A stretch of 64,000 nt of DNA from NCBI RefSeq assembly GCF_027942865.1, contig NC_134509.1, forward strand, positions 20,508,697-20,572,696, read 5' to 3'. Every line of letters starts with the position of its first letter. Within the stretch, counting starts at the first letter, position 1. Shown here one piece after another: positions 34,721 through 52,300 of the stretch. Under the pieces are notes generated by a model. The model was not told where the DNA came from. It ran no database searches and worked only from the letters and a program-made list of their open reading frames with translations. The DNA comes from Odontesthes bonariensis (lineage: Eukaryota > Chordata > Actinopteri > Atheriniformes > Atherinopsidae). The position numbers and the translations under genes are program-made.

Positions 34721-35786
34721 ATAATATCCATCCATCCATCCATTATCTTCTGCTTTTCCGGGGATCGGGTCGTGGGGGCAGCAGCCTAAGCAGAGAAGCC
34801 CAGACGTCCCTGTCCCCGGCCACTTCCTCCAGCTCTTCTGGGGGGACCCCGAGGCGTTCACAGGCCAGCCGAGAAACATAGTCTCTCCAACGTGTCCTGG
34901 GTCTTCCCCGGGGCCTCCTCCCAGTGGGACGGGCCCGGAACACCTCACCGGGGAGGCGTCCAGGAGGCATCCTAACCAGATACCCGAGCCACCTCATCTG
35001 ACTCCTCTCGATGCGGAGGAGCAGCGGTTCTACTCCGAGCCCCTCCCGGATGACCGAGCTTCTCACCCTATCTCTAAGGGAGAGCCCAGACACCCTGCGG
35101 AGGAAACTCATTTCGGCCGCTTGTATTCGCGATCTCGTTCTTTCGGTCACTACCCACAGTTCGTGACCATAGGTGAGGGTAGGAACGTAGATTGACCGGT
35201 AAATCGAGAGCTTCGCCTTCTGGCTCAGATCCTTCTTCACCACGACGGGCCGGTGCAGAGCCCGCATCACTGCAGACGCCGCACCGATCCGCCTGTCAAT
35301 CTCCTGCTCCATTCGTCCCTCACTCGTGAACAAGACCCCAAGATACTTGAACTCCTCCACTTGGGGAAGGATCTCATTCCCGACCCGGAGAGAGCATTCC
35401 ACCCTTTTCCGGCCGAGGACCATGGTCTCGGATTTGGAGGTGCTGATTCTCATCCCAGCCGCTTCACACTCGGCTGCGAACCGCTCCAGCGAGAGCTGAA
35501 GGTCACGGCCCGACGACGCCAACAGAACTGCATCGTCCGCAAAAAGCAGAGACCCGATTCTGAGGTCGCCAAAACGGACCCCCTCAACGCCCTGGCTGCG
35601 CCTAGAAATTCTGTCCATAAAAATTATGAACAGAATCTGTGACAAAGGGCAGCCCTGACGGAGTCCAACCCTCACAGGAAACATGTCCGACTTACTGCCG
35701 GCAATGTGGACCAAACTCTGACACCGGTCATACAGGGACCGAACAGCCCATATCAAGGAGTCCGGCACTCCATACTCCATACTCAA
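34721..35786 (-). mobile_element. Rex3-type (RTE-clade) LINE, 5'-truncated
   Basis: An uninterrupted minus-strand frame of 347 codons (35786-34743) encodes the C-terminal half of a non-LTR reverse transcriptase. VGLRQGCPLSQILFIIFMD is followed by the catalytic box LLFADDAVLLASSG, then EEFKYLGVLFTSEG and [20 protein letters not shown]. The element ends on the left in (CATC)n at 34725-34742, which on the coding strand is the (GATG)n tail typical of Rex3. The 5' part (endonuclease and early RT) is missing, as is usual for these copies. Length and lack of stops suggest a fairly recent insertion. Confidence 0.85.
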
Positions 35787-37357: not shown

Positions 37358-40300
37358 GTAAGATGAAATATTTCCCTTCATTTTGGGTCGTATAAGAGCT
37401 GATATTTAACTACAGGGGGACACTTTGGGGGGATTTATGGTTGAGGAGGGAAAAGGTAAAGTTTCAGGTTTGAGAAACTTTTCATTTAAGGCTAAAATGG
37501 ATTTTTCTGAACATTCTTTTTATGCTTTAAAAAAAACTGGATTAAGAGAAGCAGCTACATTTAAATACAAGCTAAATCTTGACCATTTAATGCTTTTCTT
37601 TATTTATTTGGGCTGCACAAGCTGCTCAGTTTGCTTCCACTGGTGTGAAAAAGGACAGTTTAGACCTTTTGACGGTGACTGCTGGTTAATTTGGAGGAAA
37701 CAAACTGTTCCAACAGTGTCTCAAGGAGTTAATTTCCCTCAAGTATGACTGTACTCCTCTTACATTTATCTGACGGCTCTAGTTACTTGTTACTTTTCTA
37801 AATAAGTTCATGACATTTCAAATGTTTTGAGAGCGGCTGGGACCGTTCTCTGGGGAGTTTACATACGTGGATTCTCTCTGGGCACTCCGGCTTCCTCCCA
37901 CCGTCTTAAAACATGGAGGTGACGTTAAATCGGGTTAATATCGGGTCCAGCTCCCCAGCGACTGTGACGTAGTGTCATGGGTTAAATTCTAACAGAACTT
38001 TTTAGTTTAACAGAAATATTTCTGACAATCACTAAAGTCCTTTATTGGATAAATCTACCAGAATTTCACACTTACACCTTTTAAAATGCGTAAAATTGCT
38101 GCTTTTCCTTTAAACTACTGGAAGAAAGTGACATTCAGAGATCATTTTCAGATTTTTTTTTTACCAACCAATTAATCAATATCTTTCAAAGTATGAGTTG
38201 TGGCCTGATATGTAATAGTTTGGTCAACCACCACCATTAATATTTCATAGTGTGAGTGTGATTGGGTCATTTGTCTGCAGCACTGTTCGTATTAAAAGAC
38301 TAAAACATACTTACTGAAGTAAAAGTATATTATTACTTTTACATAATTCTCTGATACTGATCCAACCAACTGCTGAGGAGAACCTTCTTCTACGTAATGT
38401 GAGATATATTGTTGTTTTTCAAATGCACAAAATAAGCGTGAGAACAGGAAATCTCTAATAAAGTAAAAAATCTCTAGTAAAACAAAAACAGAAAGTGAAT
38501 ATAGGAGGAACTAAGCTAAGATTTGGTGTGTGTTCAACATGGGCTGCAGGGGGCGCTATGTGTACAAGTCACATCAGGAGTTTAGTCTGTGCGACACACT
38601 TTGACCATAAATGGAAGAGACAGATGTTCTCTTTTGCCTTTAAAAGCACTGCTTTGTCTGCCTTAATGGATGAGTCTGTTCAAGAGGAGCAACATCTTCT
38701 TCTTTTTGTGTCAGTTGCTGATTTCTGGGTTCTGCACGGGTCCAACAAAAAAAAGCAAACTTTATCGACAACATGTGATTCACCGGAACAGTAAAGCATT
38801 GTAAAATAGATTTTGTGAGACTGTGTCTGAATAGTGATGTATTTTTACAGCTTTTTTGCATCTGGACGAGTCTGTTTGAACCTGTTTTCAAAACGGCAAA
38901 ATGGGTTTATGGTGAGCTTGCATTTAAAGAACATTCTTTGAACATTTGCGTCTCACATGCCAGCCAAGCCACACATCCTGTGTTCACTTTGGTACCTGTG
39001 ATGATGTGTCTTTCAAAGCTAACTGTGTCAGGAGCTATAAGTGTAATCAGGGTTTGAATCAAGCAGCAACACATTTTAGCAGAGCTCCTTGAAGATAGTC
39101 TGTTGCGATATAAATGAGGTAATGTGTTTTTCCACAGAAAAATTAAGAAAGACCTCAGTGTAAACCGATCAATGTCTGATATATTGACGTATTCATCATC
39201 ATGACAATTAGACGTGCACAAATTAAATATCACCGGCCACTTTATCAGCTACACCTTGCCAGTAAAAGGTTGGACCCCCCCCCCCTGTTCCTTCAGAGCT
39301 GCCTTAATTCTTCATACTTTCAACAAGGTGTTGGAAACATTCCTCAGAGATTTTGCTCCACATTGACATGACAGCATCAGGCAGCTGCTGCAGATGTGTC
39401 GGCTGCACATCTATGATGAGAATCTCCCGTTCCACCACATCCCAAAGGTGCTCTGTTGGATTGATCTGGTGACTGTGGAGGCCATTGGAGTGCAGGGAAC
39501 TCATTGTTATGTTAAAGAAACCAGTTTGAGATGATATGAGCTCTGTGACATGGTGCATTATCCTGCTGGAAGCAGCCAACAGAAGATGGTACACTGTGGT
39601 CAGAAAGGGAAGAACATGGTCAGCAGCAACACTCAGGTAGGCTGCTGCATTTAAACGATGCTCAGTTGGTACTAAGGAGCCCAAAGTGTGCAGAGAAAGT
39701 ATCCCCCACACCATTACACCAGCAGCCTGAACCGTTAATGCAAGGCAGGATGGATCCATGCTTTCATCTGAACCGTCTAAATATCGCAGCTGAACTCGAG
39801 ACTCGTCAGACCAGGAAACGTTTTTCCAATCTTCTATTGTCCAGTTCTGGTGAGCCTGTGTGAATTGTAGTCTCAGTTTCCTGCATTCCTTGGTTGGAAC
39901 GAGCGCTTATTGGAGTTACCGTCTGGCACAATATCAGCTTAAATGTAAATATATATATCTATATATCTGTATCTCCATATTGATATTTATATTCATATTG
40001 TAACAATGGTAGAAGTGCATTCAGGGAAAGTCTCAGTCTAGTCTGTCTTGTGCAGCAAGCACTTTTATTTTGACAGGCAATTCACAGGAACAACTTGTGA
40101 AATACAACCAAATACACATGCATTGAACAAGTGGGAGTAACTTTCCGTCTCACCACTTTCAGTTATGGTGCAGATTTACTTGAAATGCAACACGAACAAA
40201 AACCTTGTACTACACTGCGTACAGAACATAAACATAAACACATACAAACTCTACCACAGCACTAAATACAGCACATAAACAGGGAACAGAGAGCACCCAT

Positions 40301-43300
40301 AATGCAATGCGGCAACACACCCACAGCACGCCACAAAACCACATTGACTGATGGATAGTGTGTTTTCACATGATCTAACACAGGGGACATGTGCGCCCAT
40401 ATGGCAGGTGGACTTTTCTCTTTAGATGCTGATACAGTATAGTGGTGAAGCACAAATGTTTCTCCTCTCCACCCACATGAAGGATTCCTGTATGCAGGGT
40501 TGCCTGCTGCTGAGAGGATGCAAAGTGAACAGCTTGTATCTCTGCAGACAATTTGCAAGCATAATTTTCGGAGAAATCGATGTGAATCAAACACTCCTCA
40601 GATGTCATACTTTTCTTGTGCTCACGGTAGTGGTTGTATTGCATTTTTATATTGAACTGATGCCTTGTGAAGACTCTCAGCTGACTTTGGAACATATCTA
40701 TTGCGGCGTATAAACTTAAAAACCAATACAAACGCCGCGGCCGGCTAAGACATGGGGTTTTACTACTGAAGACGCGTCACGCAGATCTATTGCACAAATG
40801 GTGTTGTTTATTGCTCCATCTCACAAGCTTGTACGTAAAAGACAGACACTTACTTCCTTTTGATGCATTTCACGAGCTGTGCAAGGATGCCTCTGACAGT
40901 GCAGTTAATATTATGCTTACGTTTACGGTTACGGTCAACAAAAAGTTTTTCCCCAAGCTCACCCAGCCGCCATGATCCAAGCTCATCCCATCACAGCTGA
41001 GCTCACCTGCTCATTTAAAGGAAAAACACACCCAAAGTGCCACCCACAGACACCGGCGACAGCCTCCTGCTGACGTCATGCATGTGCAAACAAAAAATAG
41101 AATAATACAAAATAAAACAACTCAAAATCAATGTATGGCTCCTACATTCCGGCCCCAAATTATTGCAAGGTAATAATTCACCACCACCACCACAACCTTG
41201 TAGGAGACACCAAAATGCAGAGTGAACATACAAGTCAAGTCAAAGTAAAAAGAAAAGCCAAAAGTTAAAAAAAAAGAGGTTTATGACTGAATGTCCAAAT
41301 AATCCAAAAAGGTCTTCACTGCTCTTCTGCTTCCTGCAGAAGGCAGACTTTGGTTATCGGCCTGTCCAAACAGCTTGTTTTAGTTTTAATCCGTACACTT
41401 CGAACCAGTCCATTTTTATCCGGAACAGCATTCACAATTCTTCCTGTAATCCAAGCACTGCGAGGTGCCATATTGTCCACCAGCACCACGATGTCTCCAG
41501 AAACGAAGTTTCTCTTTGCGGTATTCCATTTCTGGCGCTCCTGAAGCCCAGGAAGGTACTCCTTCACCCAGCGCTTCCAGAACAGATCCACCATGTACTG
41601 CACTTGTTTCCAGCGACGACGAGCATACGTATCCTCCTTCTCAAACACTCCAGGTGGCACCAACGGCTGTGTTTTGAGTAGAAGTAGATGGTTAGGAGTC
41701 AACGCCTCCAGGTCTTGAGGATCCGTCGATGCTTTAGTTATTGGACGGCTGTTAACAATAGCTTCAGTCTCACAAAACACGGTTACCAAACCTTCTTCGT
41801 CCAGGTTCTGCGTTTTCAAAATGGAGCGGAGCACTTTACGGACGGAACGGATTAACCTCTCCCAAGCACCTCCATGGTGCGACGCTGCTGGGGTGTTGAA
41901 AACCCATTTCACATTCTTATGCAGCAGCATGTCGTTAATGAGGTTGTGGTTCAGCTTCTCAATGGCCACCCTTAATTCTCGTTCAGCGCCCACAAAGTTA
42001 GTACCATTATCTGAACGGATTTCCAGGACTTGACCACGACGTGCAATAAACCTTCTGAGACCATTGATAAATGAGTCTGTGTCCAAAGATGCCAACACTT
42101 CAAGGTGTATGGCTCGTATCGCCAGGCAGGTAAAAATGAGCCCATACCTCTTGACTACAGATCTTCCTCGCTTAACCTCAAATGGTCCAAAGCAGTCCAA
42201 ACCAACTCGACTGAAAGGAGGCTCATCAGGAGTTATTCTGTTGTGAGGAAGGTCGGCCATTTTTTGATATCCCGGGGCAGCAGACAATCGACGGCAGATA
42301 ACACACTTGGACAGAACCTTTCGTATGGCAACACACGCACCAGGAATCCAATATTTCTGACGCAGGCGAGACAGCATGTGGTTTCGTCCACCATGGCCTG
42401 TCACTTCATGTACATGTCGGAGAATCAGATTGGAGATGTGCAGGTCTTTAGCGAGTATTACTGGATGCTTCGCCTCTACTGGCATAGCTGCTCTACTAAG
42501 CCGCCCTCCGACCCTAATAAGACCATCATCCAAGATCGGGCTAAGCTTGAAAAGATGACTCGTTCTCCTTACACTCTCTCCTTTTTCCAAGTTGACCAGT
42601 TCCTCCGGAAACCTTGTTCTTTGACAAAAACGGATAACAACTGATTCTGCCACAACCATATCTTCAATGGACAGAACAGACTTTGGCACTTGGGCTTTGA
42701 TGTTTCTCACCCGGACCTGGACTTCCTTCTCCAACTGCTCAGCACTTATACCCGACTGAGTAAGGGTTTCTCTCAGCATCCGTCGATGTTGCACCAAAGA
42801 CAACAGCAAGGTCTTAAACTTGAGAAGCCAACAAACAGCCCTTTTGAGGAGAATCCACAAAGAAAAGTAGCCAATGAGCTTCTCAACTGGACTGACCTGC
42901 TCCACTTGAGCAGCGCTTACAACCACAGCCTTGACCTCCGGGTCTCCAACAAGAGGGTCTTCTAAGGTCTCTGGGTTTTTAGGCCACGTGCTCTCAGGTT
43001 CACAGAGAAAATCAGGACCACAAACCCACGCACCAGTCTTCATAAAAGCCTGAACTTTAACACCTCTTGAGGCCAGATCTGCAGGGTTATTGGACGTGTT
43101 CACATACCTCCATTGTGTTACTTTGGACAGTTTCAGTATTTCTGACACTCTGTTTGCCACGAAGATTTTGAATCGGGATGTTTCATTTTTTATATATTTC
43201 AAAACAGAAGTACTGTCTGTCCAAAAAACAGACTCCTGAAGGTCCATTTGCAGTTCTTTTCTCCACAGCTTGTCCATCCTGCTAGCCACTACTCCCGCAG

Positions 43301-46300
43301 TGAGTTCCATACGGGGAATGGTGACAGGTTTTAAAGGAGCAACACGTGCCTTCCCCATCACAAATGCACTGTGAGTATGCCCTCTGTCATGGAGTAGTAG
43401 GTAAGTCACTGTTCCAAATCCCTCCTCACTTGCATCAGCAAAGTGATGGAGCTGAGCAGAGGCAAGGTCACCAAAGTTCTCAGGTTTCAAGCACCTTCTG
43501 ACTTCCCAATTCTCAAGGTGACGAAGATCTTCCAGCCAGGACATCCATTCTTTGGTAATAGAGCAAGGCAAAGGGTCGTCCCATCCCAGACGTCTCCGAC
43601 AAAGGTCTTGGAGGATTTTCTTGGCAGACAAGACTACAGGTGCCAAGAAACCAAGTGGGTCGTAGACTGAACTAACCACAGACAGTATTCCTCTTCTTGT
43701 GGTTGGTCGGGTTTTGAGTGTGATTTTAAACTTGAATGTGTCAGATTGGACACACCACTGCACGCCCAAGGCACGCTCTACAGGCAAGGCATCACTATCG
43801 AGATCCAGATCTTTCACTTCTTTGGCTCGCTCCTCCTGAGGGATAGCAGCAAGAACTGTGCGTCGGTTACTGATCCATTTAGTGAGCTTAAATCCACCTT
43901 CAGCGCACAAGGCAGTCAACTCTCCACATAAAGACACAGCTTCCCCTTCAGAGCCAACAGACACCAAACAATCGTCAACATAAAAATGGTGCAGTACGGT
44001 GTTAATAGCCACAGAACTGAAACACTTTTTATTGTCCTCAGCACACTTCCTCAGGGCAAAACAGGCACAACTAGGGGAGGAAGTAGCACCGAACAGATGT
44101 GCCACCATTCTGTACTCCACCAGCTCCTGACTGCAATCTCCTTCAGGCCACCACAAAAACCTCAATAAGTCAGCGTCTTCAGCTGGCACCCTGACCTGAT
44201 GAAACATGGCCTCAACATCTGCCATGAGCGCCACAGGTTCTTTGCGGAATCTCGCAAGGACTCCCACCAGCAAACTTGTGAGGTCTGGTCCTTGCAGAAG
44301 TTGAGAGTTCAAAGATGTCCCTTGAAATGTGGCACCGCAGTCAAAAACCAACCACAACGGTCCAACTGCTCAGTTGGAACTCTCTCCGCAAAGCCATTAG
44401 CCAGCATTCCCGACATAAATGTGGTGTAGTCAGAGAAAAAGGATGGATCTTTATTTAAACGTCTTTTAAGGCCCAATGCACGCTGTACTGCAACTGTCTT
44501 ATTGTTTGGCAATTTGAGGCATCTTTGTCTTAATGGCAAACCAATGCTGTAATGACCGTCAGTGAGCTTGGCAGACTCCAAGACGAACTCCATGAAGCGC
44601 TGATCTTCCCTTGACAGACCAGACTGCTCATTCTGCAGGGTCTCGGGGAAATCCACTTTCAGCTGCTTCTCCCAAAGCTCATCAAGCCTCGCCACAGAGA
44701 TTCTATTGACTGTGATATCTGGCTGAAAACACTGTTCACTGATCTGGCAGTCTCCTCGAAGCGGGCCATTCACAGACCAACCCAGGATGGTCTTGATAGC
44801 ATAGGGGCCTCCATCCACTGCACGAATCACCTCCCACGGTTCCAGAGCTTGAGGTACATTAGTGCCGATCAGAAGGTCTACATCTGCGTCAATCTCTGGG
44901 ATTCTTATATGTCTCAGGTGTGGCCATCTTTGAAGGTCTTTTGAGTGTGGTATGTTCCCTCGATTTACAGGCATGCTCCTTTGTGTGAACATCTCGGGTA
45001 AGCCACAAAAGGTGTCAGAATCCAACCCAGCCACTTCCAGATCAGTCAACATGTAGCTGTCCACCACCTTTTCTTGTCCCATAGTTCTGAGGAGTATTCC
45101 CAGCTTCTTACCAGTCAGATTCAGCCGGTTCATTAATCGCTCTGTGCAAAATGAGGCAGTACTCCCCGGATCCAAGAATGCATGTGTAATGACAGTCTCC
45201 TGTCCCCTTTTGGACTTCACCTGGACAGGCAGAATAGAGAGAGCACAGTCCTGTTTACCGGCCCCAGTCAAGCCACTGGACTGCACAGAAACCACTACAC
45301 CTTCTCTGGCCACTTCCGAGCCATCATTAGCCTGAGTTGAGCTCTTTTGTTTTGCGTTGGAGTGGATATGCAACAATGTGGGGTGCTTAAGATTGCATAC
45401 TCTACACAACAAACGTTTTCTGCAATCTTTACTCATGTGCCCAATGCACAGACACCCAAAACACATCTTATTTTCCTTCAAAAAAGACATCTTCTCATTT
45501 TGTGTCCTTTTGTCCAAGAGAAGGCAAATATCCAAACCATGTCCAGCTCCACAAAACGGGCACACTTTACCATGTGAGCTCTCCTTATTGTTTCCAGGAT
45601 CAAATTTCTTCTTGGCAGGTGCTACAGTCGTGGCAAAACTACTGCCTCTAGCTCTTAAGCTAGCCTGAGGTTTTACCAGTCTTGTGTCTATTCTTACAGG
45701 TGTATCTTGTATGTTTCCGAAAAGCGGGTCACTTGCAATTTTGACTTGCCTCTCCACAAAATCCACAATGTTAGGAAATGTGGCTCGATGATGGAACTTC
45801 TCCTGAATATCACAGGCCACACTCCTCCACCGATCCCGCAGCTTATAAGGCAGCTTTTTCACGATGGTCTGCATATTTGTAGGCACGTTCAAGTCACTTG
45901 CAGTGGCTCCCATCGAGTTACAACATTCACGCAGCAGCAGACTGTAGGCCTGTAAAGCCTTGATGTCTTCAGCCTTAATGATTGGCCATAAAAGCACTTT
46001 ATCCATGTAGGCGGCAGCCACTTTGAATGGGTCACCAAAATGCTCCAGAAGTAATGACTTTGCCTTGGTGTATCCATGGGAAGATGGCAGATGTTGGCAG
46101 CTTCTGACCAAATCCTTGGGCTGACCTCTAGTATATTGCTCGAGGTAATACAGACGGTCCTTGTGACTCTGTGTCCTTCCTTCAATGTTGTGCTCAAATC
46201 CTCGTATGAAAGTTTGGTACTGCAGTGGATCTCCATCAAAAACCTGCAGATCTCGCTTAGGTAAGAGGAAAAGTGACTGTTGTTCAACCAATAAAGATGT

Positions 46301-49300
46301 TATTTGATTTTGCCTCTCCAAAACAGTGAGAAAACGCTGCTCCGAATTATTCTCCATTGCAGATGCAGCTGGGTCCAGCTGAAGGTGAGGACGTGATGGA
46401 TGTAATGCACCTTCAGGTGATGCATGCAGACCAGCTCCAATCCTAGCAGTGGGCAGAGTGGGCAGAGCAGTCACAGCAGTGGGCAGACCAGTCACAGCAG
46501 TGGGCAGAGTGGGCAGAGCAGTCACAGCAGTGGGCAGACCAGTCACAGCAGTGGGCAGAGTGGGCAGAGCAGTCACAGCAGTGGGCAGAGTGGGCAGCTC
46601 CATTTTGTTGTGCGTCTTGGGCCTCACAGCAGCATAACTTGAGGGCAAAACAAGATCTTCAGCCCTCATGGTCGATGGCTGTGTGGTGAGCTCAGGCACA
46701 AACGCTGCAGCATCAACATTTAACTGCATTCTCTTGCTTTCCTTCAAATAAGAGTTCATCCCATCCGACCTAGCAGACCTGCGTGACACACGAGACCCTT
46801 CTGAAGCTTTTAACACGCTCACCTTAGCCATGGAAGCTGCCAGCTCTATATCTAAATCCAGCTCCTCCTTCTTTCTTCTCAAGAGTTCCTGCTGCTCCTC
46901 CATAGCATGCTTCTCCCTCAGCAGCTTCTGACGAGCCATAAGAGCAGCTGTTTCAGCCTCAGCTCTCCACCTGGCTGACGATGTAGAGGACATAGATTTG
47001 CTCACCCCTGTACTGCATTTCTTTGATCTCCCGGACACATTAGATACACTGTCACTTGGTCTAATGTGATCTTCAACTGTGTTATCCATATTTTCATTGT
47101 TATTTGAAACAGACCCCAAACATGGTGCAACAGCATCCTCTGCTAGTGCATCTGGGACATCTTGCATATCAAACAGCCATTTATTTGCTTCCTCCACAAA
47201 CGCAGTCTTATGTTCTCCAATACTGTGAAACCATGTGTTTTGGTTTTCTTGTTCTTCCGGCGGGAGCATAGGAATCACAACACCATGAAGATGAGTTGCT
47301 TCTATGAACAAACTTGAAATATTTCCAAGATATGATTTTACCCTTTCAGCATTGTCAGCACTTTGCATTAGGCAATTAATTTCTTTTATTACACCTTTGA
47401 TCTTTCTTACTTTAGCTTGGCGCTCTTCTTGGAGCTTTTCCAATTTAAGTTCAAAAGCTTTGGGTGTAAGTTTTGTTTGTCTCTTCTCACTCGTTTCATT
47501 TCCAACACTTGACTCCATTTTTTTTTTTTTTTTATAAATCACAAAATTAATCCAAAAAACACATCACAAAAATAGCTGCTTTACTGACCACACAGCGCCT
47601 GTGTTTCCACGTGAACAATGTACAATGCGTTGTCGTTCCCTCTAACTTTCCAGTGGAGCTAAGCTAACTCAACCCTAGTCTTCTGTGCATACTAGCAGTG
47701 GGTATTTATGTACCTAAATACCGATAGTCTCGAACCAGACTGACCGTCTGAACCAGAACTACGGCGGTACTCCCAAGCACAAAGCTTCACCCGCTTGACA
47801 CACGAAAGAAAAACTGCAAAAGTCCCAAACAAATAAACCAGCACATCACCTTATGTGAATATACCGCTTAGCCTAGCAGGGAATACATTCATGCATTGAC
47901 AACAAATCTAATCCAAAATGTTTACTGTAACTTTCAACGGAGGCGAGTGTGACGACAAAATGAGTGTAGTAGCAGCAGTATTGTGAATGAATGGGAGTCT
48001 AGCGCGCATTCACGTCTATGTTTGTAACTGGGAAAGCGATCTCAAACATCCAGCGTATCCCGACATTACACTTGAATCTGCGCTTAAACAAAACACTTTT
48101 TTGTTGACAAAATATTGCGGCGTATAAACTTAAAAACCAATACAAACGCCGCGGCCGGCTAAAGGCTGATTCATACTCGGCGCAACCTCGCTCATACTAG
48201 CTGGTCGCAAATGGCGCAAACGGTCACGTGTCCCAAAATTCCGCCACGCCCCCCTTCGCGAGCTAGAAAATCCTCGCGCGGCGCAAGGGCGCGCACACAA
48301 CTTTTTTTCTGACTTTGCGCGCGCTCCACCGGAAACAGCTGACCAAGAAAAAGAAAACATGAACACTGCAGAGACCGCGGTGACTGAGAGGATGCGCCTC
48401 TACAAACATCTGTACGACACGTCTATGAAGTTACACTGGGACAACGTTTGACAAAGTTCGTCTTGTTGCAAAGGACGAACAATCCACCATCTCTTCTGTT
48501 TTTGCCGCAGCCGCTTAGCTCTGAGATACATATACAGTTCTACACCCAGAGTAAATTCATTCCGCATCAGATGTGCCAGCCTCTGCTGACGTGACACCAC
48601 AGGTGGCATTGTGTATGCTTTCTTTGTATGCTTTTCAGCTTGTTTCCTCAACAGTGACGCTCGCTGGTCTGGAGAGAACTGCAAATGTGACGCATTCTCG
48701 GCGCAAACTGCGCTTATGAGCTGAAGGAACTGTGAAGGGGCTGGCGCTTTCGATGACGTCATTAATGGTTCTCGAGCCAGAACAGTTGCGCGTTTGCGCC
48801 GAGTATGAATCAGCCATAAGACATGGGGTTTTACTACTGAAGACGCGTCACGCAGATCTATTGCACAAATGGTGATGTTTATTGCTCTATCTCACAAGCT
48901 TGTACGTAAAAGACAGACACTTACTTCCTTTTGATGCATTTCACGAGCTCTGCAAGGATGCCTCTGACAGTGCAGTTAATATTATGCTTACGTTTACGGT
49001 TACGGTCAACAAAAAGTTTTTCCCCAAGCTCACCCAGCCGCCATGATCCAAGCTCATCCCATCACAGCTGAGCTCACCTGCTCATTTAAAGGAAAAACAC
49101 ACCCAAAGTGCCACCCACAGACACCGGCGACAGCCTCCTGCTGACGTCATGCATGTGCAAACAAAAAATAGAATAATACAAAATAAAACAACTCAAAATC
49201 AATGTATGGCTCCTACAATGTCGATCATCTCTCCAAGAGAACTCTCAATCTCTTTTTTCACAGTCATTCGGACTGGTTGTGATTCTTTCTGACCTTCTTT

Positions 49301-52300
49301 CTCATTTTCTTTGTTTTTCTTCCTCCTTTCTCCCAGTTCAGTCTTCCACTGAACAAATTTTACTGAAGACTCAGCATCATAGCCTTGCTTGATGGGATAG
49401 GCGTTGTTTCTGCAGTTTGCACATTCACCGTACATGCATTCTTTGCCAAGTGGATCACAGCATACAGAGTTGGCAATGACTTCCAAGTCAGTCGTTTCCA
49501 GCAGTTTGAGTGTGTAAAGCTTTTCCACAAGAAAGGATAGGTTTTCATGCACTTTGCAGAGACAGGTTTCTCTGTCCGAAATTGGACGGGTGCACAACCC
49601 AAAAAGGACGCATGCAGCAGAAAAGCGTGTACGACAGCTGACTTGATTGGCATTCAAGAAGAAATTTGCGATGAAGATTTTTTAAGGTATCATTTAGAAA
49701 CCTTTTTTGCATTTTCACTTTCTTTCTTGTTATTGTTTGCTTCTTTCCTGCAGTTAGGCGGCTGTTATCATCTCTCAAGAAAAACTTCTTCACCTTTGCT
49801 TGGAGCTTGCTTTGAGATGTCTGGTACCTACTTCTGTGAAATGACAATCCATGTTTGCTGTTGTGACCACACCGCTTTCTTGAGAAACCAAACACGACCT
49901 GTGTAGTTTTCTGTAGCTTGTAGCGTTTGATTATCTTCCCTGACACAATTTGTGCTATGATCTGACGCTCTCTCTCCTTTTTGGTACTTTGGTAGTTTTG
50001 TCGGATAGTGCTGGTCAATGCATTATGTAGAGTAGAGTTCTTTGAATCCCTACAGCGACTCTCCGATTTCCTATCTGTTTCCGAGTTTTGGCACGAGGGG
50101 ATTCAGTTGCCTGTGATAATCTCTGGATGTGCTTCTTGTATTTTTGGACAGCAGTCGTTTTCTGTTCCAGTAAAATCTTCAATCTTTTGATTTCTCTGTA
50201 TAATTTGGAGTTCTCTCGTCTTATTCTTTTCCGTCCTGACGTCCTTTGTCTGTAATGATAACAAATACAATACCAATACAATTTACCAAGTGAATTTAAC
50301 TGCAAGTATATTTTATTATATTACATACTGCATCATATTGACAGTTCTAATAATGAAAGAACTACACTTCTCTAAATCTATAGCAGCCTACTGTACTGTA
50401 ATATTACACTCATCGACTTGCTGTCACCTAACCATCCTAACCTGGATGTCCCTGGTTGAGGGTCTGGCTCAGGGTCTGGTTCAGGACTCTGCGGTGGTGT
50501 TTCTAATGGTCACTGGTGTTGTTTCAAATTTCTTCCTTTTCTGCATCTTTGCTGAGCCTGTCTCCAATAGTTTCTCTTCTGCCTCTTCTCCCTTTCAGTC
50601 AGAGTAGTCACTGTGCTGGTTGACCCTTCATCCCTCCTCTTCTTCCATCTCTCCCTGTCGTTTTTCAAATTCGCTGCCTTTCTAACAGGGTCAGCGTCTC
50701 TCCGTGCCCTGTACTGTCGTTGTCTTTCTGCTACTGACACCATCTTGACTTACAACATTTTCATGACCTGGAAAGCGACATCATAAATCTTACCTTTACA
50801 GAAAAAATACCCAGAACTCTTGTATAAACTAAAGCAAAATGGTTACAAGTGACTGAAAACATGTGACTGTTATTCATTGTGAAACTCTGTTATCATTAAA
50901 ATCTTGGCACATGCAACAGAGTTGACGATAACAGAGTTGACATCTAACACCATTTTGTATCTAACTCCATGTGCCATCTTAAAACCAGAAAACTCATGCC
51001 ATGACTAAAACCACAATTTTATGAATTTCCATCATATATATATATTTTTTTAAATGAAGAACAGATTCACTACAACATCATAGCAACAGATTTGACGCAT
51101 AATTAATATACTCTTGGTGCATTCTCAACATTTAGCACAAATTATTGAGAGAGAAAGTTAAACATACCTTAGTTCCCTCCAAGGAAGTGAAGAAAAGGAA
51201 GTGACATCACTTGGTGCAGGTCACATGGTTTTATTTGAACGCTGTAGGTTTTTTTTATGCAGTTTTATGACCGACATAACAGAGTTGACAGAGCATGGGG
51301 ACATGTAAATTATTTATTTTTAAAATATCAAGATCAGCTCTATTAGAGGAAAATAACATTCTGTGCAAGTGATTATAAAAATATGTATAGATTTAGCATA
51401 AAAAATCAGCAAATTTTACTGAATTATTTAATGTTTATTGAAGTTGAACATGTGAATCTCTACCCGGGGACATGCATAATTGATGGTATGGGAATCATTT
51501 AATGAATGTTTAACATATAAATTGTGCATAAAATGTACAACAAACATTGTTATGGTGAACATACAGTTTATTTAGTGATAATATTGAAAGTAGATTCTGA
51601 AAAGATTTTTTTTTTGAGAAAATAATGAAAGTTCTTTTGCTGGGACACCAAATGTACCCGCAATTCTGAAATGACCCATATATATATATATATATATATA
51701 TCTGTTACCGCGTTAGATTTGACATATTTATAGAACGTGCGCACGTTAATCTTCTCATATCTGTTTTGTACATCAATAGAGGCTTTTTGTTGTGGATTCT
51801 TGTGCGTTTTGTTGTGCACATGTCAACTATATTTGATCTGTGGTGAGTTTGTAAGGCTGCTGTCTTTAAATTCAATAGAGGTTCCCTGTAATCTCTAAAA
51901 AAGAAAATGTCGCATACCACAAGTAGGTGGATTACAAGTTTTGAATTAGTTTTTTAATTTGGTCACAGATTTAAACTCTAGCTACATTTAATTTACTTTA
52001 ATACATATTTAATTTAAAGAAAATATCAAAAATGTGTTGGAAGTTCACAAGTAATAACAGTGAAGAACAACTTTAAGAATAATTCTGTGATTATTAGTCT
52101 ATTAGCTAACGTTATATATTATTCATCTTTACTATCTATTCTAAACAAGTTGTCACACATTTGAAAACTTGGCTAAAAATGGGACCTTTGGTTTCTTTCC
52201 AGCTGCAGTCATCTCGGCTTCTTCAGCCTTTAACATTGACATGAAGACTCCTGACGTCTATGATGGTGAACAAAATGATTTCTTTGGATATAAAGTGCTT

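Follow-up and report, generated by a model that had tools for sequence, protein, structure and literature searches.

A three-layer transposon nest in Odontesthes bonariensis and the possibly ruler-like ends of its outer DNA transposon family

The window analyzed here is a stretch of 64,000 nucleotides from Odontesthes bonariensis (C4:20508697-20572696), and it was compared with the genome of 945 Mb in 187 contigs. Contigs are named C1, C2 and so on, and loci fetched from the genome for comparison are named L007-L063. The window contains three nested mobile elements: a DNA transposon with its transposase gene on the minus strand, a BEL/Pao long terminal repeat (LTR) retrotransposon inside this gene, and a PIF/Harbinger-type element inside the 5' LTR of the retrotransposon. 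We are highly confident in the nest and in the order of events, outer element, then BEL, then Harbinger. The nest is an ordinary kind of event for which the internal evidence is unusually complete; it is a textbook relative clock, with exact empty sites available for both steps. The outer family matters more than the nest, and further work should concentrate on this family and the architecture of its ends. The tested transposases match no model of Pfam or NCBIfam, and the family is therefore easily left unannotated, despite 52 stretches matched by protein search in this genome and the presence of near-identical copies.

Order of the insertions

The two inner layers consist of the following features.

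40699..49217, minus strand: BEL/Pao LTR retrotransposon, whole insert (Pfam domains, LTRs, solo-LTR copies with 5-bp duplications)
40699..41146, minus strand: 3' LTR, 448 bp, Harbinger site empty (LTR alignment, genome LTR comparison)
48113..49217, minus strand: 5' LTR, 1105 bp including the Harbinger insert, with all three derived LTR substitutions (LTR alignment)
44309..47518, minus strand: gag/protease frame with DUF1759 and a weak aspartyl protease match below the cut-off (list of open reading frames (ORFs), Pfam)
41316..44369, minus strand: reverse transcriptase/RNase H/integrase frame with Peptidase_A17, Integrase_H2C2 and DUF5641 above the cut-off and RVT_1 just below (ORF list, Pfam)
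40694..40698, unstranded: left BEL target-site duplicate, ATATC, mutated from ATGTC (comparison with empty copies)
49218..49222, unstranded: right BEL target-site duplicate, ATGTC, ancestral (comparison with empty copies)
48163..48816, unstranded: non-autonomous PIF/Harbinger-type element, 654 bp, AGGCTG...CAGCCA (inverted arms, genome copies, copy ends)
48160..48162 (left) and 48817-48819 (right), unstranded: Harbinger target duplicates TAA (sequence, copy comparison)

Three other copies of the outer element, L009 on C1, L010 on C6 and the diverged L011 on C3, cross the BEL insertion point without BEL, and the two window flanks overlap there by 5 bp. The DNA search gave no further copy with matches on both sides of the BEL site. 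The uninterrupted target reads GGAACATGTCGATC in L009 and L010 and GGAACATTTCCATC in L011. The reading in L009 and L010 shows that the target was ATGTC, and therefore the right duplicate is unchanged and the left one was changed to ATATC. The earlier note, made from the sequence of the window alone, had described a transposase-like gene cut at one point with its frame in register, flanked by ATGTC and ATATC with one transition. Both statements held: the C1 copy has a single open frame of 478 amino acids (aa) across the site, and alignment of both flanks to other copies of the family, which could have refuted the continuity of the gene, joined them in all three. The right part of the outer element has 11 matched stretches in the genome, the window's own included, and over this part the window shows 47 differences from L009 in 2443 sites and 36 from L010 in 2361 sites (L010's own insert excluded).

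The identification of the insert as BEL/Pao was confirmed by Pfam domains above the cut-off, Peptidase_A17 (1.6e-46), DUF5641 (4.9e-29), Integrase_H2C2 (8.9e-12) and DUF1759 (6.3e-06), with RVT_1 (1.6e-06) and rve (4e-04) below it. The polymerase frame lies in another register than the gag/protease frame and shares 61 nt with it (window 44309-44369). The description of BEL/Pao LTR retrotransposons in PMC3118150, as far as used here, lists Gag/protease and Pao-type reverse transcriptase/integrase domains and LTRs as common features, and nothing in that part distinguishes the window element. For the LTR family, 40 of 111 candidates in the genome were scored, both window LTRs among them. Flanks were read for 20 copies, of which 9 border internal BEL sequence and 11 are solo LTRs; short duplications and solo LTRs are thus seen for this family in this genome. 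Exact 5-bp duplications flank 8 of the solo LTRs (one within an AT repeat) and duplications with one mismatch flank the other 3; the window duplication likewise has one mismatch between its copies.

Alignment of the 3' with the 5' LTR covered 448 bp with 3 mismatches (99.3% alike) and a single gap of 657 bp, which is the length of a 654-bp miniature inverted-repeat transposable element of PIF/Harbinger type plus one TAA. The length difference of exactly 657 bp, its composition of a TAA-flanked element and one target copy, and the intact empty site in the unsplit 448-bp 3' LTR had all been proposed earlier and were borne out. Harbinger is present in one LTR only and therefore entered after BEL. 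Together with the joined flanks in the three BEL-free copies, this gives the order that the earlier note had proposed. All three LTR differences are assigned to the 5' LTR because the other LTRs read whole carry the 3' LTR base in 10 of 10 cases. The LTR divergence of 0.67% points to a young BEL insertion.

The Harbinger-type element has inverted arms of 33 nt that are 88% complementary. Scoring of 40 of the 772 first-look candidates in the genome gave 39 other copies, near full length at 98-99%, and 8 additional partial or more diverged pieces adjoin some of them. Copy ends were read in 5 of the 39; all start with AGGCTG and finish with CAGCCT, and all are flanked by exact 3-bp duplications (TAA, TAA, TTA, TTA, TGA). 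The right end in the window, CAGCCA, differs by one substitution. According to the part of PMC9179366 used here, PIF/Harbinger elements of teleosts have terminal inverted repeats (TIRs) of 25-50 nt and encode a Harbinger transposase and a Myb-like protein. The window element resembles them in its 3-bp TNA duplication, its TIR of about 33 nt and its many candidate copies, but it differs in that no transposase match was found inside; its 163-aa frame has no Pfam match and thus yielded neither of the two proteins. The missing transposase match is expected for a non-autonomous element, which is called Harbinger-type by its ends only.

The following history is proposed. A Sola2-like cut-and-paste transposon landed at an AT repeat. 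BEL/Pao then integrated into a coding exon of its transposase gene, with duplication of ATGTC, at a point some 40 codons ahead of the first catalytic aspartate. Later the 654-bp Harbinger, which is non-autonomous and was mobilized by a transposase encoded elsewhere, entered the 5' LTR at TAA. The outer gene probably also received a Tc1/Sleeping-Beauty-like element that excised again and left TACAGTA behind; this event is unordered relative to the BEL and Harbinger insertions. In addition, the 3' part of the outer gene was lost at 40337.

Three readings compete with this nest, and all are considered very improbable. If the BEL flanks had been joined by rearrangement or by an assembly error, and had never been one gene, the one-base difference between the BEL target duplicates and the loss of the left end of the outer gene at a repeat without a matching duplication would be accommodated. 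However, in the three other copies the same flanks meet at a single 5-bp target, with the open 478-aa frame running through it in one case, and the BEL family produces 5-bp duplications elsewhere, which leaves this reading hardly any probability. An equally negligible chance is given to Harbinger having been present in the parental BEL and having arrived with it. No support for this was found, reverse transcription would place Harbinger in both LTRs whereas the site in the 3' LTR is intact, and none of the other scored LTRs is split (37 of 38 span all 448 bases, and the remaining one covers bases 1-410 only). Scarcely more credible is that the outer layer represents a family of host genes, or a pseudogene, instead of a transposon. 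The absence of a Pfam or NCBIfam transposase match for its proteins would fit, but its copies are dispersed, with TIR ends, unrelated flanks and 4-bp duplications, they include a short element and three nearly identical relatives on different contigs, and the predicted fold of the outer transposase is integrase-like.

Several further observations concern the same elements. Two of the three solo LTRs with a mismatched duplication, C16:8455803 and C16:8755830, lie 300 kb apart and have the same flanks (atcaa/atcat), and they count as one insertion copied by a segmental or assembly duplication. For this reason, the idea that one-base mismatches are in excess among the target duplications of BEL was considered but dropped. 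The gag frame of the window BEL contains a minisatellite with 51-bp units (window 46445-46597). A second or third 654-bp Harbinger-type piece, sometimes inverted, lies beside or very near a full copy at five places (C4:33746130-33747434, C21:13091199-13093186, C14:29725874-29727232, C18:16283096-16284405 and C26:11044629-11045989). In the C1 copy of the outer element, a BEL-like gag fragment (L009 1929-2372), 67-71% identical to window 45704-46141, lies between TIRs about 9.4 kb apart; this copy has therefore taken insertions as well. The C6 copy is interrupted at L010 4706-5250 by a repeat that matches window 34809-35358 at 97%, and about 36 bases of the outer element are missing there.

The outer transposon and its transposase

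The remains of the outer element and the adjoining repeat are located as follows.

49218..51677, minus strand: 5' part of the outer DNA transposon (Sola2-like) with TIR, subterminal sites and N-terminal exons; start codon 50743 (L009/L010 matches)
40337..40698, minus strand: outer DNA transposon beyond BEL, with HIDFSENY as the motif of the first catalytic Asp; cut off at 40337 (L010/L011 matches)
51650..51677, minus strand: 5' TIR GGGTCATTTCAGAATTGCGGGTACATTT (genome core search, inverted partners)
39995..40336, unstranded: high-copy LTR-like repeat adjoining the truncated outer element (ends without a matching duplication)

The part from 49218 to 51677 matches L009 at 97% and L010 at 95-100%, and the part from 40337 to 40698 matches L010 at 98% and L011 at 78%. 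At the TIR end (51677) the flanks of three copies are unrelated. The 23-base core of the TIR gave 11 genome matches at 3 or fewer mismatches, the window's own included, and the reversed control gave none. Inverted TIR partners are present in L007, in the C1 copy and in an element at C25. The TIR has 28 bp in the window family and similar lengths in L055 and L059. Target duplications of 4 bp were read in five elements or families (GCCT, ACAT, ATAT, AATT, GTAA). Full-length relatives in this genome have 4.7-4.8 kb, and the short element at C25 has about 1 kb. The relatives L055, L056 and L057 (on C2, C26 and C29) are 98.8-99.96% identical over 4.7 kb, a sign of recent movement, and each has an 896-aa stop-to-stop frame.

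The bounds 40262..50743 given in the earlier note had to be revised on both sides. The element runs to the TIR at 51677, with 50743 as the start codon, and it is truncated at 40337; the bases 40262-40336 belong instead to the end of the high-copy repeat. This repeat has an LTR-like shape (TGT...ACA), and its flanks show no matching duplication. A search of the window, also with tblastn, did not find the remaining 3' part of the outer gene. A split of the gene by simple insertion of the repeat was therefore rejected, and because the repeat is separate and no continuation of the gene follows it, the element is regarded as truncated. Just to the left of the repeat lies a long minus-strand frame (39304-39906) that resembles a remnant of a Tc1-type transposase.

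The outer layer is a DNA transposon whose DDD transposase has a predicted RNase-H fold. In the alignment of outer-family proteins the catalytic triad is conserved, with Asp391 in 16 of 16 rows, Asp474 in 15 of 16 and Asp516 in all 14 rows that reach this position; the single exception at Asp474 is L027, where the position lies beyond its broken end. E507 is variable. Further structure comparison of the predicted model gave an integrase/Mos1 match. The transposase-like nature of the element, proposed earlier, was thus upheld, but it no longer has to be called unplaced. By its features it most resembles Sola2, an assignment that we consider reasonably likely. Sola transposases are labelled DDD. 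In the part of PMC3627910 used here, Sola2 elements are described with 4-bp target duplications, short TIRs and a transposase of 888 aa in one family; the outer family shares the 4-bp duplications and the short TIRs. It has subterminal arrays, which that part of the paper does not mention.

Several results weigh against the fold prediction and the placement. The plain Foldseek list was led by herpesvirus terminase nucleases, with RNase H lower down and no match at E 0.001 or better, and the predicted template modelling score (pTM) of the whole model was 0.50. The top terminase ranks are taken to reflect the common RNase-H-like fold. Searches of outer-family proteins against Pfam, NCBIfam and PHROGs gave no meaningful match. 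The Sola2 placement rests on features, and three of the five target duplications (GCCT, ACAT and GTAA) depart from the form AWWT, which ATAT and AATT fit; PMC3627910, in the part used, describes this form from two groups of Amoebozoa and does not extend it to Sola2 as a whole. The outer duplication of the window copy itself is unreadable because its 3' end is gone. PDB sequence searches with the outer-family proteins likewise gave no meaningful match, relatives sought in viral contigs and prokaryote genomes were not confirmed in any case, and a literature search on motif words of the protein found no paper.

Subterminal sites of the outer family

Inside the 5' end of the window element, a 12-base word recurs at four positions, all found by motif mapping; offsets are counted from the 5' end.

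51278..51289, minus strand: subterminal site GTCAACTCTGTT, offset 389
51085..51096, minus strand: subterminal site GTCAAATCTGTT, offset 582
50930..50941, minus strand: subterminal site GTCAACTCTGTT, offset 737
50915..50926, minus strand: subterminal site GTCAACTCTGTT, offset 752

The site at 582 is a one-base variant. Three other lineages carry 5' arrays, each with a word of its own. In L055 the second word lies at 393, 582, 737 and 752 and inverted at 778 and 798; in L059 the third lies at 391, 584, 738 and 753 and inverted at 779; in L063 the fourth lies at 387, 581, 737 and 763 and inverted at 788 and 809. Arrays also occur at the 3' ends, with positions counted from that end: 583, 565, 544 and inverted 206 in L007; 560, 540 and inverted 200 in L055; 585, 545 and inverted 202 in L059; 580, 560, 540 and inverted 200 in L063. 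The short C25 element retains sites at 391, 574 and 729. No sites lie inside the ORF in L055, L059 and L063.

The sequence between the sites does not align across lineages. The four lineages have 24-38% ungapped identity there (two stretches measured) and no blastn match. In 11 of 12 comparisons the sites agree with the four window positions within 4 bp; the highest count was 6 among 200,000 random placements and 10 among 200,000 random slides of whole arrays.

Scans for the spacing did not yield uniform results. The window, L055, L059 and L063 supplied the offsets for the 5' scan, which itself also showed the second site of L055. It detected the array in five of nine loci, the four defining ones and L051, with scores of 29-32 against control maxima of 22-24. 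Two loci were fetched after the offsets had been set. L051 confirmed the 5' spacing, with a fifth word, spacings of 189/345/365 and a score of 32 (maxima of 22-24 in ten shuffles), and L048 did not; the 5' end of L051 itself was sought and not located. In the 3' scan, five of 18 loci reached a score of 24, namely L055, L059, L063 and L007, which had defined the scan, and L037, which has the same word as L059 and is perhaps not a separate lineage. L047 and L050 scored a weaker 20, with a word that matches the 5' array of their relative L051; this score lies within the control range (one L063 shuffle gave 21 and one L061 shuffle 20).

Both scans also had negative loci. No 5' array was detected in L062, L058, L061 and L048, and 11 of the 18 loci were without a 3' array, many of the stretches being short and two of the loci, L061 (21) and L051 (20, with another word), being ambiguous. 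The missing arrays may reflect lost ends, short stretches or lineages without an array. In L062 (C18), where the fixed-spacing array was not found, a repeated word GGTGGAAATTAC occurs within and beside the terminal repeat itself.

The subterminal repeats are probably transposase-binding arrays. Their presence near both ends, their absence from the ORF and the use of one word per lineage fit binding of the transposase in a complex of fixed geometry. We lean, by a modest degree, towards the view that the ends of the outer family act as a ruler: the putative recognition sites would hold their distances (about 390, 582, 737, 752 and inverted 778 and 798 at the 5' end; about 580, 560, 540 and inverted 202 at the 3' end) while the lineages rewrite the motif, presumably together with the DNA-binding domain of the transposase. 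The main alternative, given a minor chance, is that the arrays are promoter or silencer elements of the transposase gene, as the window sites lie 172-546 bp upstream of the start codon. However, L007, L055, L059 and L063 have another array of the same motif near the 3' end, at 200-585 bp from it, and the short C25 element retains three of the sites, both of which favor transposase binding.

CACTA elements have subterminal repeats, short repeated binding sites inside their ends. Such short repeated sites are also found inside the ends of the hAT element Hermes (PMC10368747, in the part used here), and the putative sites of the outer family resemble them. In contrast to hAT and CACTA elements, the lineages of the outer family differ in the motif, but the positions of its sites vary among them by only a few bp. 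A literature search, thin on subscription papers, found no published description of the fixed-spacing arrays of the outer family. The lineages are a natural experiment in which the spacing of the putative sites is held and the binding word is changing, and the rule that links a transposase to its site could be read by comparing them. Mu and Tn7 form rigid multi-site nucleoprotein complexes. If true, ruler ends would imply a complex of this kind in a vertebrate DNA transposon.

A probable excision footprint in the outer gene

A further difference between close copies lies in the part of the outer gene beyond BEL.

40433..40439, unstranded: TACAGTA, a 5-bp insertion at TA present only in the window, probable Tc1/Sleeping-Beauty-type excision footprint (L009/L010 comparison)

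The window reads GCTGATACAGTATAGTGG at 40433, and L009 and L010 read GCTGATATAGTGG; L011 has a gap at this site and is hence silent. The change from TA to TACAGTA shifts the frame of the outer transposase. The word alone is not rare, with four occurrences in the window, and the evidence for a footprint is therefore the 5-bp difference at TA between close copies, not the word itself. The part of PMC3432063 used here gives TAC(A/T)GTA as the form of Sleeping Beauty excision footprints, which the window matches with TACAGTA at TA; the donor element itself is not at the window site.

We regard a Tc1/Sleeping-Beauty-type excision footprint as likely. The alternative, to which we give a small share of the probability, is a 5-bp tandem duplication of TATAG followed by one substitution. 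The five bases that follow are TATAG, one mismatch from TACAG, small indels distinguish outer copies elsewhere, and Tc1-type ends used as queries gave just two loose matches among the loci examined; these points count against a footprint. However, a duplication would require a second, specific change, whereas a single insertion and excision yields the exact string.

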